From assembly GCA_016208915.1 (NCBI GenBank), contig JACQXE010000069.1, positions 1 through 33,092 on the forward strand: a DNA stretch of 33,092 nucleotides, read 5' to 3'. Of the stretch, positions 6,059-31,267 are shown piece by piece. The DNA comes from Nitrospirota bacterium. Lineage in GTDB: Bacteria; Nitrospirota; Thermodesulfovibrionia; Thermodesulfovibrionales; UBA1546. The first letter of the stretch is position 1. Each line of letters starts with the position of its first letter. Under the pieces are notes generated by a model. It was not told where the DNA came from. It searched no databases and saw nothing but the letters and a program-made list of their open reading frames with translations. The position numbers were made by a program, and so were the translations under genes.

Positions 6059-6436
6059 TCACTCCCCAAGATATGCCTTCTTGACCTGCTCATTATTAAG
6101 AAGCTCCTCTCCCAAACCGTGGATCACTATTCTTCCATTCTCAAGCACATAGCCCCTATTTGAAAGGTTGAGAGCTGCATGCGCATTCTGCTCTACGAGA
6201 AGGACAGTAACGCCATCCTGATTGATTTCTCTTATCGCCTTGAATATCTTACTGACAACAATTGGCGCAAGTCCAAGAGACGGTTCATCAAGGAGAAGGA
6301 GCCTTGGCTGGGACATCAATGCCCTTGATATGGCAAGCATCTGCTGCTCTCCTCCGCTTAAAGTACCGCCCATCTGTTTCTCGCGTTCTTTAAGTACAGG
6401 AAACATCTCATACGCTTTTTCAAATTGATTTTTCAC
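6059..6436 (-). pseudogene. livF: Branched-chain amino-acid ABC transporter ATPase LivF, C-terminal part
   Basis: Second half of LivF in a frame one base off from the first half. It contains the ABC signature LSGGEQQ, Walker B LLLLDEPSLGLAP, the H-loop region and the LivF ending NNEQVKKAYLGE. Sequence resembling LivF starts at FEKAYEMFPVLKERE. The join with the N-terminal part (6420-6809) is interrupted by a 47-bp palindrome of C7 and G7 runs (6434-6480). The combined span 6059-6809 is 751 bases, so losing one base from any of the four runs would give a single 250-codon gene. As sequenced, no complete ATPase is made unless ribosomal or transcriptional slippage occurs on the homopolymers. Confidence 0.88.
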
Positions 6437-6809
6437 CCCCCCTATACCCCCCCTTGCTAAGGGGGGGTATAGGGGGGGTGGTCTTTAGTCTCCGCGATAT
6501 TATGTATGCTCCCATTTCAAGATTCTCTTTTACAGTGAGCCTTGGAAATATCCTTCTTCCTTCAGGCACATGACTTATCCCCATCTCAACAATTTCGTGT
6601 GGATATGAACTGGAAATCTCTTCACCCTTAAAAAATATATTTCCCCTTCCAGGCCTCAATATCCCTGATATAGTCATAAGAGTTGTGGACTTACCAGCCC
6701 CATTACTGCCAATAAGACAGACTATTTCACCTTGATTGATCTTGAGCGAGACGCCCTTCAGCGCCTCTATCTGGCCGTATGATGTACGTATATCTTTTAA
6801 TTCAAGCAT
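6420..6809 (-). pseudogene. livF: Branched-chain amino-acid ABC transporter ATPase LivF, N-terminal part
   Basis: First half of the ATPase: MLELKDIRTSYGQIEALKGVS, Walker A GSNGAGKST (35-43) and the LivF-typical SHVPEGRRIFPRLTVKENLEMGAY. At about residue 107 the frame enters the C7/G7 palindrome, which it translates as TTPPIPPLSKGGYRGG, and stops soon after. LivF with LivG energises import of branched-chain or related amino acids through LivHM. Last gene of the liv operon, 210 bases after livG, a gap that holds another copy of the same palindrome family. Confidence 0.88.
6434..6480. repeat. Perfect 47-bp palindrome of C7/G7 runs inside livF
   Basis: Two 22-base arms with a 3-base loop (GCT): CA-C7-TATA-C7-TT, GCT, AA-G7-TATA-G7-TG. 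Four seven-base homopolymers make it prone to slippage in cells and in sequencing. Confidence 0.95.
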
Positions 6810-7019: not shown

Positions 7020-7781
7020 TTAGTGTTCCTTGCCAAGATATGCCTCTATGACCAATGAATTTTTTCTTATTTCTTCAGGGTTCCCCTCTGCTATCTTAAC
7101 ACCATGGTCAAGGACAATTATATTTTCTGAAATTCCCATCACGACCTTCATGTCATGCTCGATCAGTATTACAGTCCTACCGAGTTCCTTAAGTTTTTTT
7201 ATCAGCTCCATCATCTCTGATGTCTCCTGAGGATTCATTCCTGCTGTCGGCTCATCAAGCAATATCAGCCTCGGCTCTGTTGCAATCGCCCTCGCTATCT
7301 CAAGCCTCTTCTGACTTCCGTACGGAAGGTTTCCTGCAAGCATATCACCAGAACTCTCCAGTCCTATAAGTTCGAGGTACTCAAGCGCCTTCTCTCTTAT
7401 CGATTTCTCTTCATTTTTAAAAAATCTGCTCCTTGTTATCGCTCCTAAAAAACCAGAATGCGTCCTGCAGTGCTGGGAGACCATCACATTTTCAATAGCA
7501 CTCATTTCCTTAAAAAGCCTTATGTTCTGGAATGTGCGCGAGATTCCAAGTTTTACTATCTTGTCCGGTTTAAGTCGTGTTATCTCTGCATCGAGAAAGC
7601 CAATTGCACCCTTAGTCGGTCTTGTAATTCCTGTAAGACAGTTGAAGATCGTTGTCTTTCCTGCACCATTCGGACCTATTATGCTCGTGATAGACCCATC
7701 CTTAACTCTGAATCTTACCTCTTCCACAGCCCGTATGCCGCCAAAGCGCTTTGTTATGTCTCTAATCTCAAGAAGGTACAT
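7020..7781 (-). CDS. livG: Branched-chain amino-acid ABC transporter ATPase LivG
   Basis: About 253 residues, full family length and intact. Walker A GPNGAGKTT, LivG-specific ISRTFQNIRLFKEMSAIENVMV, signature region LPYGSQKRLEIARAIA, Walker B RLILLDEPTAGMNP, switch histidine in LIEHDMKVVM. Two adjacent ATG codons (7784 and 7781) are possible; AGGAGG is better spaced for the second. It overlaps the end of livM by 14 bases, so translation is probably coupled. Forms the cytoplasmic ATPase dimer with LivF. Confidence 0.96.
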   Translation of the reverse strand: MYLLEIRDITKRFGGIRAVEEVRFRVKDGSITSIIGPNGAGKTTIFNCLTGITRPTKGAIGFLDAEITRLKPDKIVKLGISRTFQNIRLFKEMSAIENVMVSQHCRTHSGFLGAITRSRFFKNEEKSIREKALEYLELIGLESSGDMLAGNLPYGSQKRLEIARAIATEPRLILLDEPTAGMNPQETSEMMELIKKLKELGRTVILIEHDMKVVMGISENIIVLDHGVKIAEGNPEEIRKNSLVIEAYLGKEH

Positions 7782-8346
7782 CATTGCCTCCTGTCAGATG
7801 TCTGCTATGGCGGAAAAATCCCTGAGGTCTGAATACCATAAGCAACACCAAACCGCTCCCGAGAGCAAGCATCCTGTACAACTGTATTCCCCTCAGCATC
7901 TCAGGAAGCATCACAAGTATTATTGCGCCAAGTATCACACCCGAGATGCTCCCGATCCCTCCGAGTATCACCATACAAAGTATTAGCACAGATTCCATAA
8001 AGGTGAAACTCTCAGGTGATACGAATTGCATCTTGGCAGCAAACAGGGTTCCTGCAAGCCCTGCCCAGAATGCGCCAAAGGAAAACGCGTATAATTTATA
8101 TGCCGTGATATTTATTCCGACAGAAGAGGCTGCTATCTCATCCTCTCTTATCGCAACCCATGCCCTTCCGATCCTTGATGAATAAACTCTTCTAACTATG
8201 AAAACTGTCAGTGCAACAAAGATCAAAATAAAATAGTAGTAATAGTTTAATCTTACTACTGGCATCCCGGGCAGATAAGGCGCGGCTATGCCGCCAATAC
8301 CGTTTGGTCCTCTTGTCAAAGAGTCCCAGTGAGTTATTAAGCACAA
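7768..8346 (-). pseudogene. livM: LivM permease, C-terminal part (frameshifted)
   Basis: Continues LivM in another frame, with clear family sequence from HWDSLTRGPNGIGGI onward: YSSRIGRAWVAIREDEIAASSVGIN, the signature EAA-like loop, then several membrane segments and GGIGSISGVILGAII. The N-terminal frame (8192-8911) is in register up to IVRLVLNN. Removing one C (base 8333 or a neighbour) yields LNNHWDSLTRG and a single 381-codon gene; the whole span 7768-8911 is 1144 bases, one over a multiple of three. A real frameshift or a one-base consensus error. Confidence 0.88.
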
Positions 8347-8911
8347 GACGCACTATCTCTCCAAACCCGAGTGTCACTATTGCAAGATAGTCTCCCCTCA
8401 GTCTGAGGGCAGGCACTGCGAGCACAAATCCTGACAGGGCTGTAAACGTCACAGACAACGGCATTGCTGTCCAGAACCCTAACCCAAGACTTGTATTAAG
8501 TAATGCATATGAATACGCCCCTATTGCATAAAATGCCACAAATCCGAGATTCAGCAACCCTGCAAACCCGACAACGACATTAAGCCCCTGCGCCAGTATG
8601 ATATAAATACCAACGAGGATTGCCACATCAATAAAATAGTCAGTAGTGATGAGAGGCAGGATAAAAAGTAATAGTAATAATGCGTAACGAGAAATAGCCA
8701 ATGTCCGGACATATGATTCTGCTGAACTTATCTTTCTGCTCAGGGCATGCAGTTTGTCAATAAACATCTTGATATGTCCGGAAACAATTCTTAGAAGAAA
8801 AAACGAGACTGCAAGAACCGCAAACAGGACAAGAGAAGCCTTGAGTCCTTTGAAAGGCAGGAAAAGCAGTGCAAACCATAATGCAATAAATATGCTATAC
8901 CTTTTCTTCAT
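8192..8911 (-). pseudogene. livM: LivM permease, N-terminal part (frameshifted)
   Basis: Inner-membrane subunit of the amino-acid importer. Begins with ATG at 8911 inside the livH 3' end (17-base overlap), a normal LivH-LivM coupling. Family motifs: YIILAQGLNVVVGFAGLLNLGFVAFYAIGAY and RLRGDYLAIVTLGFGEIVRLVLNN. It has an extra N-terminal hydrophobic and basic segment of about 90 residues before the conserved core, as in longer LivM forms. After residue about 193 the frame runs into unrelated sequence because of the +1 described for the C-terminal part. Confidence 0.88.
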
Positions 8912-9931: not shown

Positions 9932-12900
9932 TTACGGATTAATCGTTATCGCCTTATACTTGTTATTGTTCGTCTCGCTGGTCTCAACAACAACTCCGTC
10001 AGCATCTGATACCGCAATGATGTACCACGTGCCAGGACTAACGACAGGAAGTGTCACATTTCCGCTCTGTGTATTTGTTTTTCCTGCATCCAATTCAGAC
10101 ACAGACCTCGTCCTCAGAAGGAGATCCCCAGTTTCATAGGTGGTATTTGTAGAAAGATAGAGTTTTGTCGTTGATGCACCTGCCACGCCTCCTCCGCTGT
10201 TCTTTGTCGTGTCACCTATGGTTACGGTTGAACCATTCGTTGCAGAAAGCGGCGCTGTTATTGCAGATACTATAAGGTCAGGCCCTATCTTGATGGATTT
10301 GGATTTGTTATTATTTGTCTCGCTCGTCTCTGTTACAACTCCGGTTGCATCTGCCCTCGCTATGATATACCATGTCCCTGTTGCTGTTCCAGCAGGTATA
10401 GTTACTGTTGTGCTTCCTGTGTCTTCTGCATTTGGTGCAAGAGATCCAAGGGCTCTTTCTCCAAGAGGTGTGTCTAATGCATCCCATGTTGAATTCGCTG
10501 AAAGATAGTACCTTGTTGTTGATGCTCCTGCTGAACATCCACCCTGGTTCTTTGTTGTATCGCCTACAGTTATTGTCTTTCCGTCTCCTGATATCAACGG
10601 CGCTGTAATGGCTGAAACAATGAGATCGGGCCCAGTCTTGATAGATTTATACTTGTTATTGTTCATCTCATTGGTCTCGCTGACCTGATTATTAGCATCT
10701 GCCTTCGCTATGACGTAGAATGTGCCTGAACATGCACTCAAAGGAACTGTTACTACGATATTTGGACCAACACTTGAGTCCCCTGCTGCAAGCTCCGGCA
10801 CTGTCCTCTCGCCAAGGTATGTGTCACCTGCATCCCATGTTGAGTTTGTTGACCAATAATACTTTGTTACACTCCCACCTGATGTGCCTGTTCCCTGGTT
10901 CTTGGTCGTATCACCCACTGTTATGCTTGCACCTGGATTTGCAGTTGTTGGTCCTGTTACGGTTGTAATAATAAGGTCAGCCACTGGTGCATAATTAAAT
11001 GTTGCTGTTACAGTTTTATCTGAACCCATTGTAACTGTGCATGTGCCAGTGCCTGAGCAATCCCCTGACCAGCTTGCAAATGTTGAACCTGTATCCGCTA
11101 TGGCTGTTAAAGTCACTACTGTCCCTGCGCTGTAAGCCTCGATGCAATCATTTCCGCAGTTTATGCCTGCAGGACTGCTCGTTACTGTACCGCTTCCTGA
11201 GCCTCCTTTTGTGACTACTAAAATAGTTCCTCCGACTCCACTCAATGGCATATTGAGTGTAGGAGTGCCGGGATCATTAGAAGGAATATTTAGCATTGCA
11301 GATTTTGTCCCTGTACTCGACGGAGAAAATTTTACATCAATTGCGCATAAACTGTTCGCTGGTAAGGTTGTACAATTGTTTGTTTGACTGAAGTCCCCTG
11401 CATTTGCGCCTGTAATGGTTATTGGATTAATGATAAGGTCTACATTGCCTGTATTCCGAACCCGTACTTTTCGTATTGTGAATTTAGTCGGATTCACATA
11501 GCCAAAATTTAGAGAAGAAGGATAGGCAAAGATTTCAGGGCTGGGCGGGGTGCTGACGCAGACTGCATTTACTGTCGCAGTTGGGGTTGTAACAGTCGCA
11601 TTGCTTATCGCCGGAACAATAGAAGTGTTCGTCACCGATGCAGTTGTGCTGGCTACGGTTGCATTCGTAGTAGTTGCTGCCATATTTAATGGACCTATTA
11701 TTGAACAGGTATTGATATTTCCGTTATTATCAAACTTTAATATTAATGCATCTGTGCCTGTAATACCGGCTGCTACAAACCCGCCATCGGTGGTCTGTTC
11801 GATAGAATAGATATGATCGTTATTGCTTACTCCATAGGTCTTTTGCCATTGAATATTTCCACCTGGATCAAGTTTTAGCGCCCATCCATCATAAAAGCCC
11901 GTACTTAGCTCCGTTTCACCAGCAACTATATAGCCACCATCAGAGGTTTGATGGATGGAGTTAGCATAATCAGTGCTTGTCCCGCCGTAAGTCTTTTGCC
12001 ATTGAATATTTCCACCCTCATCCAGTTTCAATACCCATGCATCATATAAGCCTGCTCCAAAAGATCCTGTATAGCCAGCAATTACGAAACCGCCATCAGA
12101 GGTCTGCTGGATGAAACTGGAGATATCATCACTGTTACCACCATATGTTTTCTGCCATTGGACATTTCCGCTCGCATCCAGTTTCAAAATCCATACATCA
12201 AAATAACTGCCAACTTTTTTATAACCAACAACAATAAACCCAGTATCAGAAGTCTGCTGAATGGAGTATGCCTGTTCGCCTCCACTGGTGCCATATGTTT
12301 TCTGCCATTGAATATTTCCATTAGCGTCGAGCTTCAGCAGCCAGATATCGAAAGATCCTGCACCAAAGGAGTAGGTCTCACCAACTACAATGTATCCTCC
12401 ATCAACAGTTTGTTGGATAGATTCTGCAAAATCAAGATTACTCCCGCCGTAAGTCTTCTGCCATTGAACATTTCCATTAGCATCGAGTTTTAATACCCAT
12501 GCATCATAACTGCCTGCCCCCGACGAACCTGTAGCACCGGAAACTATATAGCCACCATCAGAGGTTTGATGGATGGAGTTAGCATAATCAGCGCTTGTCC
12601 CGCCGTAAGTCTTCTGCCATTGGGTATTCGCGCTTGAATCAAGTTTCAATATCCATAAGTCATTATATCCTGCACCGTAAGAATAAGTCCCTCCTGCTAC
12701 TATATAACCCCAATCAGATGTTTGTTGGGCAGAGCTGAACCATTCAGACGAGGTCCCGCCAAAAGTCTTTGCCCACAGAGATGTGAAATCCAAGTGAACA
12801 TTCATATTGTAAGAATTCCTCGTATCATCCGCCAGAAAGATACGCACGAAATAATCTGTTGGAGCACTGGTGTTGAAGTGCTCCACATGTTCAATATCTC

Positions 12901-13951
12901 CCGTTCCTTTTGAGCTGCTCACAGGTGTGGTATCGGAACCTCTATATAACTCCATATCGATATTGCCATTGCTGTGAATAAAGGAAAGACTAACAGAGAT
13001 AGGGGTATTTTGAGGTACTGTGATCTTGTACCAGTCCTCATCATTTAACTTCACCACGTTGCCCTTATAAGCGCCTGCTGAAACAATTTTTGCCGTAGTA
13101 CGGCTGTCATTTTCTTCCAGCGAATCATCAGTCCCGCCCTGAAGGTAGCTTTGAATGAAGGGATAGGAGACAGAGAACTTTCCATAGTTAGAGATTTTTG
13201 TTGGGTCGCATGGCTCTACAAAAGTACAAATTTGTCCATAAAGTTGTCCAATACATTTATGATCTGAATTCCAAATGCATGAGCCGGATGATCCTTCTTC
13301 TGTAGTTCCTGAATACCAATCAATATCCCAATAATTGATATTGTTACAGGTAGAGGTAATATTTCCAAAGGAAATCCGTCTGTAATCGTCAGTATTACTG
13401 GGGTGATGAATTCCAACAACGCTGTCGCCAATACCGGGTTCAGCCGTTGTCGTACCGGCCCATGTCAGATTCCTGGGTACTGTGCCCAGGAGTTCAAGGA
13501 GGGTGAAGTCGGAAAATTCTTCTTTTGTTTTTCCGTCCAGATAAATTGCATCAAGCGATTTTGGCAAATTGTCCATTATAGGAGGTATTCCATTGCAGGT
13601 AGGAGTCTCATAAAACCAATAGACTTTAATCTCCGAAACAGTGATCTCATCAGGAATACAGTGATTGGCTGTGAGGAAGTATGGTATATGGTCTTGCGAA
13701 AGGCTATCTATCATTGTCCCTGTACAATAAGCAGTTGCTCCATCTACCTGAAATTTTAGTCTGCCCACAGCATCGCCTTCGGTAGCCCAATCTGGATAAC
13801 AGGTTGCATCATTATGGCAGGATGCTGCCGAAGGAACCATACCAGATTCAGACATGCTCTTTCTGCCTATGGGCCGATACAGATGACTTATCTTGTCAAT
13901 TTTGAATAGTAGGGTTGAGCAGTCATATTGAATTGTTTTAGGTATAAACAA
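9932..13951 (-). CDS. Giant secreted lysyl-endopeptidase-like protease: catalytic and repeat part
   Basis: 1339 codons in one frame. Order: end of prodomain; trypsin-fold (S1) protease similar to lysyl endopeptidases, with His in YFLTANHC (97), Asp in SDFTLLEL (148) and Ser in GSSGS (222); a PPC-like beta domain (about 275-390); seven repeats of about 51 residues starting WQKTYGG and ending WVLKLDANGN, probably a seven-bladed propeller (about 392-745); an ASH/choice-of-anchor domain (SLNFGYVNP, about 790-900); an InlB-like Gly/Cys domain (VTKGGSGSGTVTSSPAG); three CARDB domains ending NNNKYKAITINP. The family is exported. Its signal peptide and prodomain lie in 14514-13888 in another frame; an (AT)7 tract at 14045-14058 separates them, and one AT less restores a 1527-codon gene. 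No cell-wall or PEP-CTERM anchor is seen. Confidence 0.9.
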   Translation of the reverse strand: MFIPKTIQYDCSTLLFKIDKISHLYRPIGRKSMSESGMVPSAASCHNDATCYPDWATEGDAVGRLKFQVDGATAYCTGTMIDSLSQDHIPYFLTANHCIPDEITVSEIKVYWFYETPTCNGIPPIMDNLPKSLDAIYLDGKTKEEFSDFTLLELLGTVPRNLTWAGTTTAEPGIGDSVVGIHHPSNTDDYRRISFGNITSTCNNINYWDIDWYSGTTEEGSSGSCIWNSDHKCIGQLYGQICTFVEPCDPTKISNYGKFSVSYPFIQSYLQGGTDDSLEENDSRTTAKIVSAGAYKGNVVKLNDEDWYKITVPQNTPISVSLSFIHSNGNIDMELYRGSDTTPVSSSKGTGDIEHVEHFNTSAPTDYFVRIFLADDTRNSYNMNVHLDFTSLWAKTFGGTSSEWFSSAQQTSDWGYIVAGGTYSYGAGYNDLWILKLDSSANTQWQKTYGGTSADYANSIHQTSDGGYIVSGATGSSGAGSYDAWVLKLDANGNVQWQKTYGGSNLDFAESIQQTVDGGYIVVGETYSFGAGSFDIWLLKLDANGNIQWQKTYGTSGGEQAYSIQQTSDTGFIVVGYKKVGSYFDVWILKLDASGNVQWQKTYGGNSDDISSFIQQTSDGGFVIAGYTGSFGAGLYDAWVLKLDEGGNIQWQKTYGGTSTDYANSIHQTSDGGYIVAGETELSTGFYDGWALKLDPGGNIQWQKTYGVSNNDHIYSIEQTTDGGFVAAGITGTDALILKFDNNGNINTCSIIGPLNMAATTTNATVASTTASVTNTSIVPAISNATVTTPTATVNAVCVSTPPSPEIFAYPSSLNFGYVNPTKFTIRKVRVRNTGNVDLIINPITITGANAGDFSQTNNCTTLPANSLCAIDVKFSPSSTGTKSAMLNIPSNDPGTPTLNMPLSGVGGTILVVTKGGSGSGTVTSSPAGINCGNDCIEAYSAGTVVTLTAIADTGSTFASWSGDCSGTGTCTVTMGSDKTVTATFNYAPVADLIITTVTGPTTANPGASITVGDTTKNQGTGTSGGSVTKYYWSTNSTWDAGDTYLGERTVPELAAGDSSVGPNIVVTVPLSACSGTFYVIAKADANNQVSETNEMNNNKYKSIKTGPDLIVSAITAPLISGDGKTITVGDTTKNQGGCSAGASTTRYYLSANSTWDALDTPLGERALGSLAPNAEDTGSTTVTIPAGTATGTWYIIARADATGVVTETSETNNNKSKSIKIGPDLIVSAITAPLSATNGSTVTIGDTTKNSGGGVAGASTTKLYLSTNTTYETGDLLLRTRSVSELDAGKTNTQSGNVTLPVVSPGTWYIIAVSDADGVVVETSETNNNKYKAITINP
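11924..12004. repeat. Near-identical 81-bp block in propeller repeat 6
   Basis: Differs at two bases from 12542-12622 (propeller repeat 2); the first 50 bases are identical. The other blades are clearly more diverged, so these two were homogenised recently. Confidence 0.9.
12542..12622. repeat. Near-identical 81-bp block in propeller repeat 2
   Basis: Partner of 11924-12004, 618 bases apart. Recombination between the two would delete four blades in frame (206 codons). Confidence 0.9.
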
Positions 13952-14514
13952 TTCAATAATGGCTCTGTCATCCCAAACAGTTCCAGCCCATAATTCAGGG
14001 CCTCCTGTATAAGGGCCTTCATATTTGTCAGGTTTTGCAGGAGAATATATATATATATCTTTGCGCCACCTGGTAGATAGAAATCAGTAAAATGGACATC
14101 AATACCAGATGCTGATGGAGCATGTATCTCAAAGAGCCATATGGTTCCAAAGCCGGGGATATCAAACCATTCTCCATGAGTCAGCGGAGAGGCATTGATT
14201 TCGCGGTGGATTCCTGCGCGGAGCGGTTTTCCAAAGTCGCCTGCTGCCCTATCTTCTGCAATCAATTTATCCATATCGATAGGCGGCAGGTGCAGTACTT
14301 TTGCTGGATCGGGTACAATACCGGCTATCTGGCTCGGAAGCAGCGGTTTTTCCGCAGGCGGTTTTTCCCACTGCTCAGGTGGAATTGTGCTGCCGGGTAT
14401 CGATATCCCATCTGCAAAGAGATTAGCAGTGATAATCAATGTCAAACTCACAAAAAATAAATTAAGCAACAACAAAATCAAAATATTCCCCTGTAACTTT
14501 CTTTTCACTCTCAT
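13888..14514 (-). pseudogene. Giant protease: signal peptide and prodomain (separate frame)
   Basis: ATG at 14514 has AAAGGAGGT six bases upstream. It begins MRVKRKLQGN, then a long hydrophobic stretch ending ANLFADG, a signal peptide. Next come the prodomain motifs VLHLPPIDMDKLIAED, REINASPLTHGEW and GTIWLFEIHAPSA, then FYLPGGAKIYIYI. At the (AT)7 tract the frame departs from the family: after it this frame encodes unrelated sequence, whereas the other frame continues YSPAKPDKYEGPY, as in the paralogue at 14672-15280 (KVYVYSPSKPDKYGGPY). The two frames are offset by two bases, exactly one AT unit. Confidence 0.85.
14045..14058. repeat. (AT)7 microsatellite at the protease frameshift
   Basis: Seven uninterrupted AT units encode IYIYI. 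With six units the reading is KIYIYSPAKP and the 1527-codon protease is continuous. A contingency-locus-like tract, or a consensus error. Confidence 0.85.
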
Positions 14515-14671
14515 CTTTAACCTCCTTTATAAAAGATTTTATCTTCATTCTTAAACTCCTCCTTCATCACCTCCTCTTCTTCTTGTTTTGATTTAAAGCA
14601 AATTATACTATGTCATTCTAAATTCATTCCAGAATCTAATTCGGACTCTGAAACAAGTTCAGAGTAACATC

Positions 14672-15280
14672 CTAAAAAACTAACCTTCCCACAGCATCAC
14701 CTTCAGTCGCCCAATTAGGGGAACATGTCGCATCGTTATGGCAGATAGCCGATAGAGAAGTAATGCTACTCTCAAATAGAGAATTTTGAGTCGAATGACG
14801 ATAAAAATGGCCAACCCCTTTTATATTAAAAGGTGATTTTGAACGGTCAAAAGGAATTGGAATAGCTAATTCTATTATTATTTTGTCGTCACCCCAGATA
14901 ATATCTGAACCAAAATCGGGGCCGTTAGTATTATCATAAGGTCCTCCATATTTATCAGGTTTTGAAGGGGAATAAACATAAACCTTAGACCCCTGGGGCA
15001 AATAAAAATTTGAAAAACTAACACTTATTGCGTATGCTCTTGGAGAATGTATTTCAAAAAGCCAAATACTTCCTTTCCCGTCAAAATCATACCATTCTCC
15101 GTGAGTCAGTGGAGATGCATTGATTTCCCGATGACTCCCTATCCTATGGGGCTTTCCTTTACCTTGTACCGTTTCGTCCTCTTTAATCAATTTATCCACA
15201 TCTATCGGTGGTAGATGTAAAACTTTGTCCGAGCTCGGTTTAAGATTATATTGCTGGGCCGGTGTAGGCCCTTTCTTCAT
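14672..15280 (-). pseudogene. Truncated paralogue of the giant protease (prodomain only)
   Basis: 202 codons from ATG 15280 (MKKGPTPAQQY), which overlaps the stop of the preceding fn3-like gene (ATGA) and has AAAAGGAG upstream. It aligns with the prodomain of the giant protease: VLHLPPIDVDKLIKED, REINASPLTHGEW, GSIWLFEIHSPRA, VYVYSPSKPDKYGGPY, CHNDATC and WATEGDAVGRL. It stops at GRLVF just before the catalytic domain, so no His/Asp/Ser triad exists. It also lacks its own signal peptide: the similarity continues a few residues upstream into another frame (WEKEPP, compare WEKPPAEKP), showing that the true N-terminus was replaced by the fn3-like gene. A repeat-like sequence (about 14600-14670) follows the truncation. 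Confidence 0.8.
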
Positions 15281-15672
15281 AGGCGGCTCCTTTTCCCATT
15301 TACAAAATAGAATGTGGAAGACCAATAGCCGAAACCCTCATAATTCCATGCTATTACATGCCAGTAATATACTGTCCCAACATCGGGAAAACCTATGAGT
15401 TGAACGCTCGTATTTCCTCCTGTCCAATCTCCATAAACAACATTGTTGAACCATGGATCAACTGCAATCTCTAGATAGTAATCATATGCATAATTAGCCG
15501 CCGCCCAACTGAATATTACTGATGTGCCTCCAACATTCTGACCGTAATATGGAGAAACAAGAAAGGGGGTGTCTGGCAGCGTAGCGGAGGCAACGGCCGC
15601 AAATGATAGAATTCCAACCGCTGACAATACAACCACAACACTCCAGAACTTACGGTATATTGATATCTTCAC
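15277..15672 (-). CDS. Secreted protein with a fibronectin-III-like domain
   Basis: 131 residues from a GTG at 15672 with GGAGG ten bases upstream; a longer frame to 15789 reads back into the preceding gene and is not used. A signal peptide (KFWSVVVVLSAVGILSFAAV, ending ASA) is followed by one fn3-like domain: DTPFLVSPYYGQNV, VIFSWAAANYAYDYYLEIA, TVYYWHVIAWNYEG, FGYWSSTFYFVNG. The stop follows at once and overlaps the truncated protease. Similar proteins usually carry more domains, so the C-terminus may have been lost in the same deletion that beheaded the protease paralogue. Probably exported; function unknown. Confidence 0.7.
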   Translation of the reverse strand: MKISIYRKFWSVVVVLSAVGILSFAAVASATLPDTPFLVSPYYGQNVGGTSVIFSWAAANYAYDYYLEIAVDPWFNNVVYGDWTGGNTSVQLIGFPDVGTVYYWHVIAWNYEGFGYWSSTFYFVNGKRSRL

Positions 15673-25569: not shown

Positions 25570-25708
25570 TTTTCCTCACCTCTATCTTCCCGCTGACATA
25601 GGTAAGCGGTGAGAACCCGAGACTCATAAGGCATACGCATATGGTATAAGAGAGATTCTTCTTATCGGAGCATCCGATTCCGTCCTTTTGGTGTGCTAAA
25701 ATAGCACG

Positions 25709-26377
25709 ATGAACGATAAAGACCATCCGACCGAAGCGGCCCATGATATTCAAAGGATACTCGAAACATTGAGGACTGTCTTTGGGTTTCAATCATTTCG
25801 CCCAAATCAGGAAAGCATCATCAAAAGCATAGTGAACGGACGGAACATCTTTGCGGTGATGCCGACGGGCGGGGGAAAATCACTCTGTTACCAGCTTCCG
25901 GCTAAGATGATGGGAGGCACTGCAGTGGTAATCAGTCCGCTCATCTCCCTCATGAAAGATCAGGTAGACGCTGCACTCGAAAACGGGATACCGGCTGCAT
26001 TTATGAACAGCTCGATGACTGCGCAGGAGATATCTGATGTATACCGCACTTTGAAACGTAAAACCATAAAACTTCTCTATATCGCGCCGGAGCGTTTTGC
26101 AATGCCGCATTTCCTCGAGACGCTGAAGACCTTTACCGTCTCTCTCTTTGCAATAGACGAGGCCCATTGCATATCGGAATGGGGCCACGATTTCCGCCCT
26201 GATTATCTCAGTCTTTCTCTTATTCCAATGGTTTTCCCTGATGTGCCGGTGGCTGCCTTTACCGCAACGGCGACCCAAAAAGTTCAAGAAGATATCATCA
26301 AAAAGATCGGACTCTGTGATCCTTACATCGTACGCGCCTCTTTTAACCGTGAGAACCTTTTCTATCAGGTGAAGTAA
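25709..26377 (+). pseudogene. recQ: RecQ helicase, N-terminal part up to an in-frame TAA
   Basis: ATP-dependent 3'-5' DNA helicase, here the first RecA domain. Motif 0 FGFQSFRPNQ, motif I PTGGGKSLCYQLPA (52-65), motif Ia SPLISLMKDQV, motif II DEAHCISEWGHDFRPDY (about 148) and motif III FTATAT. The frame ends at TAA 26375-26377 (QVK-stop). The same frame continues immediately with KSKVESQILEFLHEH, normal RecQ sequence, so one codon is the only fault. No good ribosome site precedes the ATG at 25709. Confidence 0.9.
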
Positions 26378-26467
26378 AAATCGAAGGTAGAATCTCAGAT
26401 ACTGGAATTCCTCCATGAGCATCAGGGAGAATCAGGCATTATCTACCGAACGACCCGTGATTCGGTA

Positions 26468-27910
26468 ATGGAAACAACAGCCTTCTTGGTATCAAAAGGG
26501 ATCAAGGCGCTTCCCTACCATGCCGGGCTGTCTTCTGAGGAGCGAAATAGAAACCATGAGGCATTCAACAGGGATGAGTCGCCGGTAATCGTGGCGACTA
26601 TTGCCTTCGGTCTCGGAATCGACAAGTCGAACGTGAGGTTCGTTGTCCATGCGGACCTTCCCAAAAATATCGAGAGCTATTACCAGGAAACAGGACGCGG
26701 GGGGCGCGACGGCGAGCCGGCCCATTGCCTGCTTTTTTTCAGCAGGGGGGACATCCCGAAGATCCGTTATTTTATCGACCAGCTAACAGACGAGGGAGAA
26801 CGATTTATTGCAGCGGAAAAGCTGAACCAGGTCGTGGAGTACGCATCCCACAATGTGTGCAGGAGGAGGCGTCTCCTCGAGTTCTTCGGAGAGGACTATA
26901 CCTATGAAAAGTGTAGCGCATGCGATATCTGCACAGGCTCTGTCGAACAGATCGATATTACCGGAGATGTGCAGATAATAATGTCAGCCATATCGAGAAC
27001 ACAGCAGCGGTTCGGGATAGGCCATATTAGCGATATCGTGACAGGCGCCGACACAAAGAGGGTACGAGAACTCAAGCACAATGAGATAAAAACCTATGGT
27101 GCGGGAAAGCACAAGGACAAGAAGCATTGGCGTTTCCTTATTAATGAACTCCTTGCACAGGACATGCTCAGGCATGAGGGCGATCCCTACCCGGTGCTGA
27201 AGATAACTCCGAAGGGGTTTAATGTGCTCTACGGAAAAGAAGATGCGAAGGCTTTAAAGAGAGGAGAACCGGTGACAAAGACACGAACCGGGCATGACCC
27301 CGGACAGTATGATGATGCCTTTTTCGAGAAGCTTCGCTCTCTCAGGAAAAAGATAGCCGATGAACACCAGGTTCCTCCCTATATCATCTTCTCCGACAGA
27401 ACCCTCCACGAGATGTGCAGACATTTTCCCACGACTCTGCCCGACGTGAGAAGGATCAGCGGCGTCGGCGACGCCAAGCTTGAACGGTACGGGGAAGATT
27501 TTGTCCGGGAGATAAAAAAGCATCTCGGTGACAATCCCGGTATTTCGGTTCCGGAAAGACGGCCCTCCGATTTCGATTCTGTTGACCGGCCAAAGACAAA
27601 GAAAAAGGGTGAAACAGTTGAAGAGACCTATGAGCTTTTCAAGCTGGGCCTGTCCCTTGAGGATATCGCCAAACAGCGAAATCTTACCCCCTCCACCATT
27701 GCCGCACATCTTGAGCGGCTCATCCGTAAGGGGCATGATATTGATGTAGACCGTCTTATAAATCCGGGAAAGCGGAAAGAAATCGAGGATGTTTTCCTTT
27801 CTCTCGGACAGTGGAATCTGAACCCCGTTGTAGAGCGTTTCAACAGTGCGGTGAGTTATGAAGAGGCACGGCTGACAAGGGCATGGCTTTTGCGCAAAAC
27901 ATCAGGGTGA
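26468..27910 (+). pseudogene. recQ: RecQ helicase, C-terminal part after the TAA
   Basis: Same frame as the N-terminal part; similarity actually resumes at 26378, the first ATG is 26468. Contains motif V VATIAFGLGIDKSNVRFVVH, motif VI SYYQETGRGGRDG, the zinc site of RQC (C..C..C..C: NVCRRRRLLEFFGE, CSACDIC), a winged-helix RQC, an HRDC-like region (IIFSDRTLHEMCRHFPTT) and a C-terminal helix-turn-helix (GLSLEDIAKQRNLTPSTIAAHLERL). The complete gene would be 734 codons, an ordinary long RecQ. Confidence 0.9.
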
Positions 27911-30243: not shown

Positions 30244-30528
30244 TTGAAAGTTGCTAAACTTTACAGCTTTAATGATATCAGGATTGAGGATATGCCAATT
30301 CCCAAAATTGGTCAGGGAGACGCCCTCATAAAAACACACGCCTGCGGCATATGTTCAGGAGATGTGATGCCCTGGTATATAGAGAAAAAAGCGCCGGTTG
30401 TTATCGGGCATGAACCTGCAGGAGAGATAGTGGAGTTGGGCTCGTCACTCGTCACTTTCTGTTGGCGACAGGGTTTTCACGCATCATCATGCGCCGTGTT
30501 TTACATGCAGGTTCTGCAGGCGCGGTGA
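30244..30528 (+). pseudogene. Zinc-type alcohol dehydrogenase (MDR), N-terminal part
   Basis: Starts at TTG 30244, four bases after the ATPase stop. Encodes MPIPKIGQGDALIKTHACGICSGD with the catalytic zinc Cys and GHEPAGEIVELGSS. After residue about 69 a 7-bp tandem duplication (CTCGTCA, twice, 30441-30454) shifts the frame; the shifted frame ends at 30528. Undoing it gives GSSLSVGDRVFTHHHAPCFTC, a normal MDR sequence. Confidence 0.85.
30441..30454. repeat. 7-bp tandem duplication in the dehydrogenase
   Basis: CTCGTCA occurs twice in a row. Removing one copy restores the reading frame. Confidence 0.95.
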
Positions 30529-31267
30529 TTATGTCCAGTGCGAGACATGGAAAAACACAAGGATAATTCCCGGAGGGATTTCAGAATACATCCTCATACC
30601 CAATATCAATCTTGAAAATGATACCCTGAGCCTTCCCGATACTCTGAGCTATGAGGACGGTACTTTAATAGAGCCGACCGCATGTGTTGTTAAAGCTCTG
30701 AAAAGAGTCGGCATAAGAAGAGGAGACACAGTCCTTGTTATAAGGCTTGGCTTCATGGGACAGTTAAATGTTCTACTTGCAAGGAAATATGGTGCAGACA
30801 GAATCATCGGAGCTGATATGATTGCATTCAGATTAAATAAGGCTAAAGAACTGGGCGCAGACGAGGTGATTGATGTTTCAAAAGATAATCTCACTGATGC
30901 TCTCAGAAACCTGACAGACGGCATAATGGTGGATGTGGTTGTGGTCGGGCCAAACAGCGCTGATGCAATGAAGCAGGGGATAGAGTGTGCAGGCGCCGGA
31001 GGAAAAGTCTTATTTTTTACGCCTGCAAAGCCCGGCGAACGCCTCACAATTGAACCTAATGATTTGTATTTCAAAGATATTAATATAGTCACAAGCTAAT
31101 CATGCGGCCCTACTGATACGGCGGATGCGCTTGAAATAATAGAGAGCGGAATTGTAAGCGCTGAAAATCTTGTTACTCACAGGTTTCCGATAGAAAAAAC
31201 TGCCGAGGCGTTCAGGCTCACATCGGAGGCAAAAGATTCATTGAAGAGTGTTATTGTGTTTGGGTAG
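30455..31267 (+). pseudogene. Zinc-type alcohol dehydrogenase (MDR), remainder, with an in-frame TAA
   Basis: From 30455 the correct frame runs SVGDRVFTHHHAPCFTCRFC, the structural-zinc loop, then GDYVQCETWKNTRIIPGGISEY, YEDGTLIEPTACVVKALKR, and the NAD(P)-fold LGFMGQLNVLLARKYGADRIIGAD. A TAA at 31097 stands in NIVTS-stop-SCGPTDT, where a Tyr codon is expected. It then continues to GVIVFG and TAG at 31265. Without the 7-bp copy the gene is 339 codons, the family norm. Two independent faults indicate real decay, or two consensus errors. Probable substrate class is a polyol or threonine; it cannot be fixed. Confidence 0.88.

Follow-up and report, generated by a model that had tools for sequence, protein, structure and literature searches.

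Is the dinucleotide tract at which a giant protease gene changes frame an evolved on/off switch, or the site of an ordinary frameshift? We addressed this question in a window, meaning the whole stretch of DNA analyzed, that is the entire contig C68 (33,092 b) of an 88-contig, 2.51-Mb genome whose contamination is estimated at 1.66%. C68 carries the genome's only SmpB and its tetranucleotide composition is typical, so nothing obvious marks it as a contaminant; on these grounds we rejected a foreign or misbinned contig. The tract and the two reading frames that meet at it are as follows.

14045-14058, inside the minus-strand protease gene: uninterrupted (AT)7 tract, the site of the frame change.
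The same tract on the coding (minus) strand: AAG, then ATATATATATATAT, then TCTCC, coding for Ile-Tyr-Ile-Tyr of a propeptide beta-strand.
13888-14514, minus strand: upstream frame of 208 aa, comprising signal peptide, an N-terminal portion of the propeptide and a tail that is out of frame.
9932-14083, minus strand: downstream frame, with the remainder of the propeptide, a lysyl-endopeptidase-like serine protease domain, PPC, repeat units, ASH/HYDIN Ig, Flg_new_2 and CARDB.

An earlier note on this DNA had proposed that the frame switches at the tract, and our analysis agrees: the prodomain frame enters the tract and the catalytic frame leaves it. The two frames are offset by 2 nt modulo 3, equal to one AT unit as the note had held, and a tblastn search of the window with an intact homologue (L053) returned two collinear pieces, 14421-14047 and 14083-10997, indicating a single frame change confined to 14047-14083. 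Both halves of the gene are otherwise open, and a gain or loss of one AT unit joins or separates them. The junction that the note had derived from a paralogue was confirmed by that paralogue, which reads GSKVYVYSPSKPDKY, and by the homologues in G193 (GAKVYVYSPSYPDKY) and G141 (GAKVYVYSPSSPDKY). The upstream frame runs from an ATG at 14514 to a stop at 13888, lacks the catalytic residues and, up to the tract, is 66% identical to an intact homologue in BMS3Abin06. Read in silico, the (AT)7 allele can yield only a truncated propeptide of 208 aa that lacks the catalytic domain. It is unlikely that the catalytic half is translated on its own from within the gene, as the resulting protein would have neither signal peptide nor propeptide.

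From 14083 to 9935 the downstream frame stays open (1,383 codons), and it keeps the catalytic His, Asp and Ser in the motifs TANHC, SDFTLL and GSSGSC, which are invariant across the aligned homologues. Its domain matches were Trypsin_2, PPC, ASH/HYDIN, Flg_new_2 and CARDB, and phmmer matched it to the structures 1arb_A (E=2.7e-18), 4nsy_A (3e-18) and 9omd, with E-values ranging from about 1e-18 to 1e-15. No Pfam family matched the propeptide. Together with the signal-peptide-like N-terminus of the upstream frame, these features uphold the note's claim of a secreted protease: from its sequence, the product is predicted to be a secreted multidomain lysyl-endopeptidase-like serine protease, with Lys specificity a prediction at most. 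About five 156-nt repeats at 11838-12657 of the protease gene encode beta-propeller-like units (YGGTSADYANSIHQTSDGGYIV...); units of a similar kind are present in further proteins from relatives (L008, L009).

Signal peptide, propeptide and protease are split over two frames here but lie in one frame in homologues. The closest homologue, from bacterium BMS3Abin06 (L018/L053/L156; placed among unclassified Bacteria in NCBI taxonomy), is an intact 1,243-aa protein with 54-66% identity, sharing the protease, the propeptide and similar C-terminal domains; the homologues found also include Thermodesulfovibrionales and a Nitrospirae bacterium, which suggests that the window belongs near Nitrospirae, and none was found in viral contigs. 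The protease and the propeptide region upstream of it share a frame in same-order and same-class relatives and at 80 public-genome loci from many phyla. Of 76 located homologous frames, 75 extend well upstream of the catalytic His and the remaining one is cut by a contig end. About 80 homologues inspected at the tract site have no repeat there, so among them (AT)7 is private to this genome, and we rejected the repeat as a trait of the family. What the homologues keep at this position is a strand of Val, Ile or Leu with Tyr or Phe, written in mixed codons (GTT TAC GTT TAT in G193, GTA TAT GTT TAT in G141). An AlphaFold model of a homologue (mean pLDDT 65.8, with a block value of about 81) places the corresponding VYVY within a strand spanning roughly residues 127-132.

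The paralogue is a fragment next to the protease gene.

14672-15325, minus strand: paralogous fragment, with propeptide and only ~20 residues from the start of the protease domain, truncated at both ends.

It has no AT tract and writes the strand as AAG GTT TAT GTT TAT. An assembly mix-up of the two protease copies is unlikely, as the aligned part is 72% identical. A single-protein search of public genome contigs with the paralogue gave no match, but a profile search did find homologues. Beside its truncated end, at 14590-14685, lies a stretch of ~80 nt with a weak 31-nt match in contig C44, a possible remnant of a repeat element.

How unusual is the tract? It is the sole run of at least six AT units in the 2.51-Mb genome, for which a first-order Markov model predicts 0.018 occurrences of (AT)7. 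A 754-kb sample contained 50 AT/TA runs of four units, five of five units and then the tract itself, with no other dinucleotide tract of at least six units and no tetranucleotide tract of at least four; among other related genomes searched, 11 of 80 had an (AT)7 anywhere. Given this rarity, the overlap of tract and frame break is beyond chance, although a tract at the frame break is predicted both by a switch and by accidental slippage. Codon use in the genome offers a route to such a tract: with ATA used for 0.45 of Ile and TAT for 0.71 of Tyr, the chance that IYIY comes out as a pure AT run is about 10%, nothing out of the ordinary for that peptide. The single IYIY/YIYI peptide in 191,000 residues is the one at the tract.

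The state of the surrounding contig bears on how the frameshift is read. Four other genes in the window are broken.

7768-8911, minus strand: livM, split by a 4-nt ACTC insertion at 8331-8334 that resembles a tandem duplication.
6059-6809: livF, with an inserted palindromic element and a frame change at 6436-6478.
25700-27910, plus strand: recQ, with an in-frame TAA at 26375-26377 where the relative G002 has CAG.
30244-31261, plus strand: alcohol-dehydrogenase-like gene (adh), in which the frame changes at a 7-nt tandem repeat (30441-30456) and a TAA stands in frame at 31097-31099.

Intact versions of livM occur in related genera, and recQ of G002 is a single 738-aa frame with 90% identity, the change from CAG to TAA requiring two substitutions. 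The TAA of the alcohol dehydrogenase gene corresponds to TAT in G006, and contig C23 ends in a partial open copy of this gene. The replaced codons, Gln CAG in recQ and Tyr TAT in the alcohol dehydrogenase gene, gave no common meaning for a possible recoding of TAA. The livF insert, C7-TATA-C7-TTAGCAA-G7-TATA-G7, has 19 matches in the genome, some being the two strands of one place. Short tandem-repeat insertions break two of the four genes. Counting internal stops only, and using reference genes only from stretches not picked for these loci, we found three of six orthologues broken in the window, against 0 of 65 sampled from the rest of the genome (Fisher p=3.5e-4, a value that overstates independence, as the six include linked liv genes). 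The figure of 0 of 65 led us to reject both genome-wide decay and genome-wide sequencing error. Three further observations concern the genome at large: at G000:C47:11959-12615 a LivG-like paralogue contains a single in-frame TAA; poly-G/C runs of at least seven number 55 in the 754-kb sample here, against 11 in a relative over 726 kb; and heptanucleotide tandem repeats of three to five copies are frequent here and in the related G006 (L089:992, L089:3713, L117:13479, L133:17286 and others).

The earlier note had likened the tract to a contingency locus. On this reading, (AT)7 would gain and lose units often, switching the protease on and off, and the assembly would have captured the OFF phase. 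The part of this proposal that stands is the length: seven units exceed the cut-off of at least six dinucleotide units at which screens call a gene potentially phase variable (PMC6321876). A secreted product, an otherwise intact gene and a tract that is the only one of its kind in the genome and lies exactly at the frame change are also what a contingency locus would show. Against it, the repeat is absent at the site from every homologue inspected, the genome sample has no sister tracts, and neighboring housekeeping genes carry unrelated lesions incapable of switching. Tracts near the cut-off may also have mutation rates too low for switching to be of use (PMC6321876); the documented dinucleotide phase variation in H. 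influenzae is in a promoter tract of (TA)9-11, and seven of eight five-unit dinucleotide loci there had no length change between strains (PMC2651432). Tract length is thus what supports a contingency locus, and an evolved on/off switch is not borne out by the evidence; we regard the reading as unlikely. That codon choice in a conserved Ile-Tyr strand has given an uncultured environmental Nitrospirae-related bacterium a live, recently arisen switch that makes a giant secreted protease phase-variable strikes us as rather unlikely too.

An error in the assembly or consensus, with a true tract length in the population that keeps the gene in frame, is another candidate reading. Indel errors do fall in repeats, and the assembly is in 88 contigs with some estimated contamination, perhaps from short reads or a metagenome. 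However, 14 bp fit easily inside one read, the other lesions of the contig (CAG to TAA, TAT to TAA, the 4-nt insertion and repeat-element insertions) are not homopolymer errors, and all 65 orthologues elsewhere in the assembly are intact, leaving an error quite improbable. The (AT)7 allele could instead give some full-length protease by ribosomal frameshifting or transcriptional slippage at the tract: on repeated codons, paired tRNAs or the polymerase could in principle move by two bases and still be paired, and the downstream frame is open. Yet no canonical slippery heptamer was seen by eye around the tract, and no homologue uses a frame change at this site, so that recoding would need to be newly evolved; we give it very little credence.

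The explanation we favor, with a probability of roughly two in three, is that a run of Ile-Tyr codons became a microsatellite and slipped, leaving the gene OFF as one of several recent lesions on the contig and not as a selected switch. In this lineage the alternating Ile/Tyr residues of the strand would have come to be encoded as ATA TAT ATA TAT, and codon choice would thereby have produced a dinucleotide microsatellite by chance. Slippage would then have altered the tract by a number of bases not divisible by three, as the sole frame change lying at the tract suggests, and the OFF allele would most likely have become common or reached fixation, being one among several recent lesions that inactivate genes on this contig. 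With all 1,383 codons of the downstream frame open and its catalytic residues retained, the lesion is a young one. Since the tract is uninterrupted and the rest of the gene open, the allele may be an OFF state that is reversible in principle by occasional slippage. The protease gene is inactivated relative to intact orthologues, and livM, livF, recQ and the alcohol dehydrogenase gene carry independent lesions; with lesions of such different kinds in the neighbors, a slippage frameshift among recent breaks is the simpler account. Three points count against slippage amid local decay: one lesion in an otherwise intact 4.6-kb gene fits the OFF phase of a contingency locus too, the livF insert and the recQ TAA differ in kind from slippage, and the clustering of lesions on one contig is left without an account.

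The locus is a concrete case in which an Ile/Tyr beta-strand motif and the choice of ATA and TAT codons produce a slippage-prone tract within a gene. It also illustrates that homologues and the health of the surrounding contig can separate an OFF-phase contingency locus from an ordinary frameshifted gene, which a scan of the sequence by itself cannot do. Of broader interest, and more surprising, is that broken genes are concentrated on a single contig while the genome is otherwise intact. Were the switch live, it would show a contingency locus just as it arises, in an organism other than the host-adapted pathogens in which these loci are mostly studied.

Three known systems resemble the locus in part. 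Like the simple-sequence-repeat contingency loci of Campylobacter and Haemophilus influenzae, it has an intragenic repeat of at least six units whose unit is not a multiple of three, and a change in length shifts a secreted or surface gene in or out of frame. Unlike them, its tract is not conserved in homologues, has no sister tracts in the genome sample, is not known to vary in length and sits amid irreversibly broken genes. The product resembles lysyl endopeptidase (Achromobacter protease I; 1arb, 4nsy, 9omd) in its aligned protease domain, its His/Asp/Ser motifs and the long propeptide before them, but its multidomain C-terminal part is much longer and its gene is split over two frames. As in single-lesion bacterial pseudogenes that arise in short coding repeats, one frameshift lies in a tandem repeat, the remainder of the gene is intact and other lesions lie nearby; unlike in those pseudogenes, the lesions here cluster on one contig while the sampled remainder of the genome looks intact.
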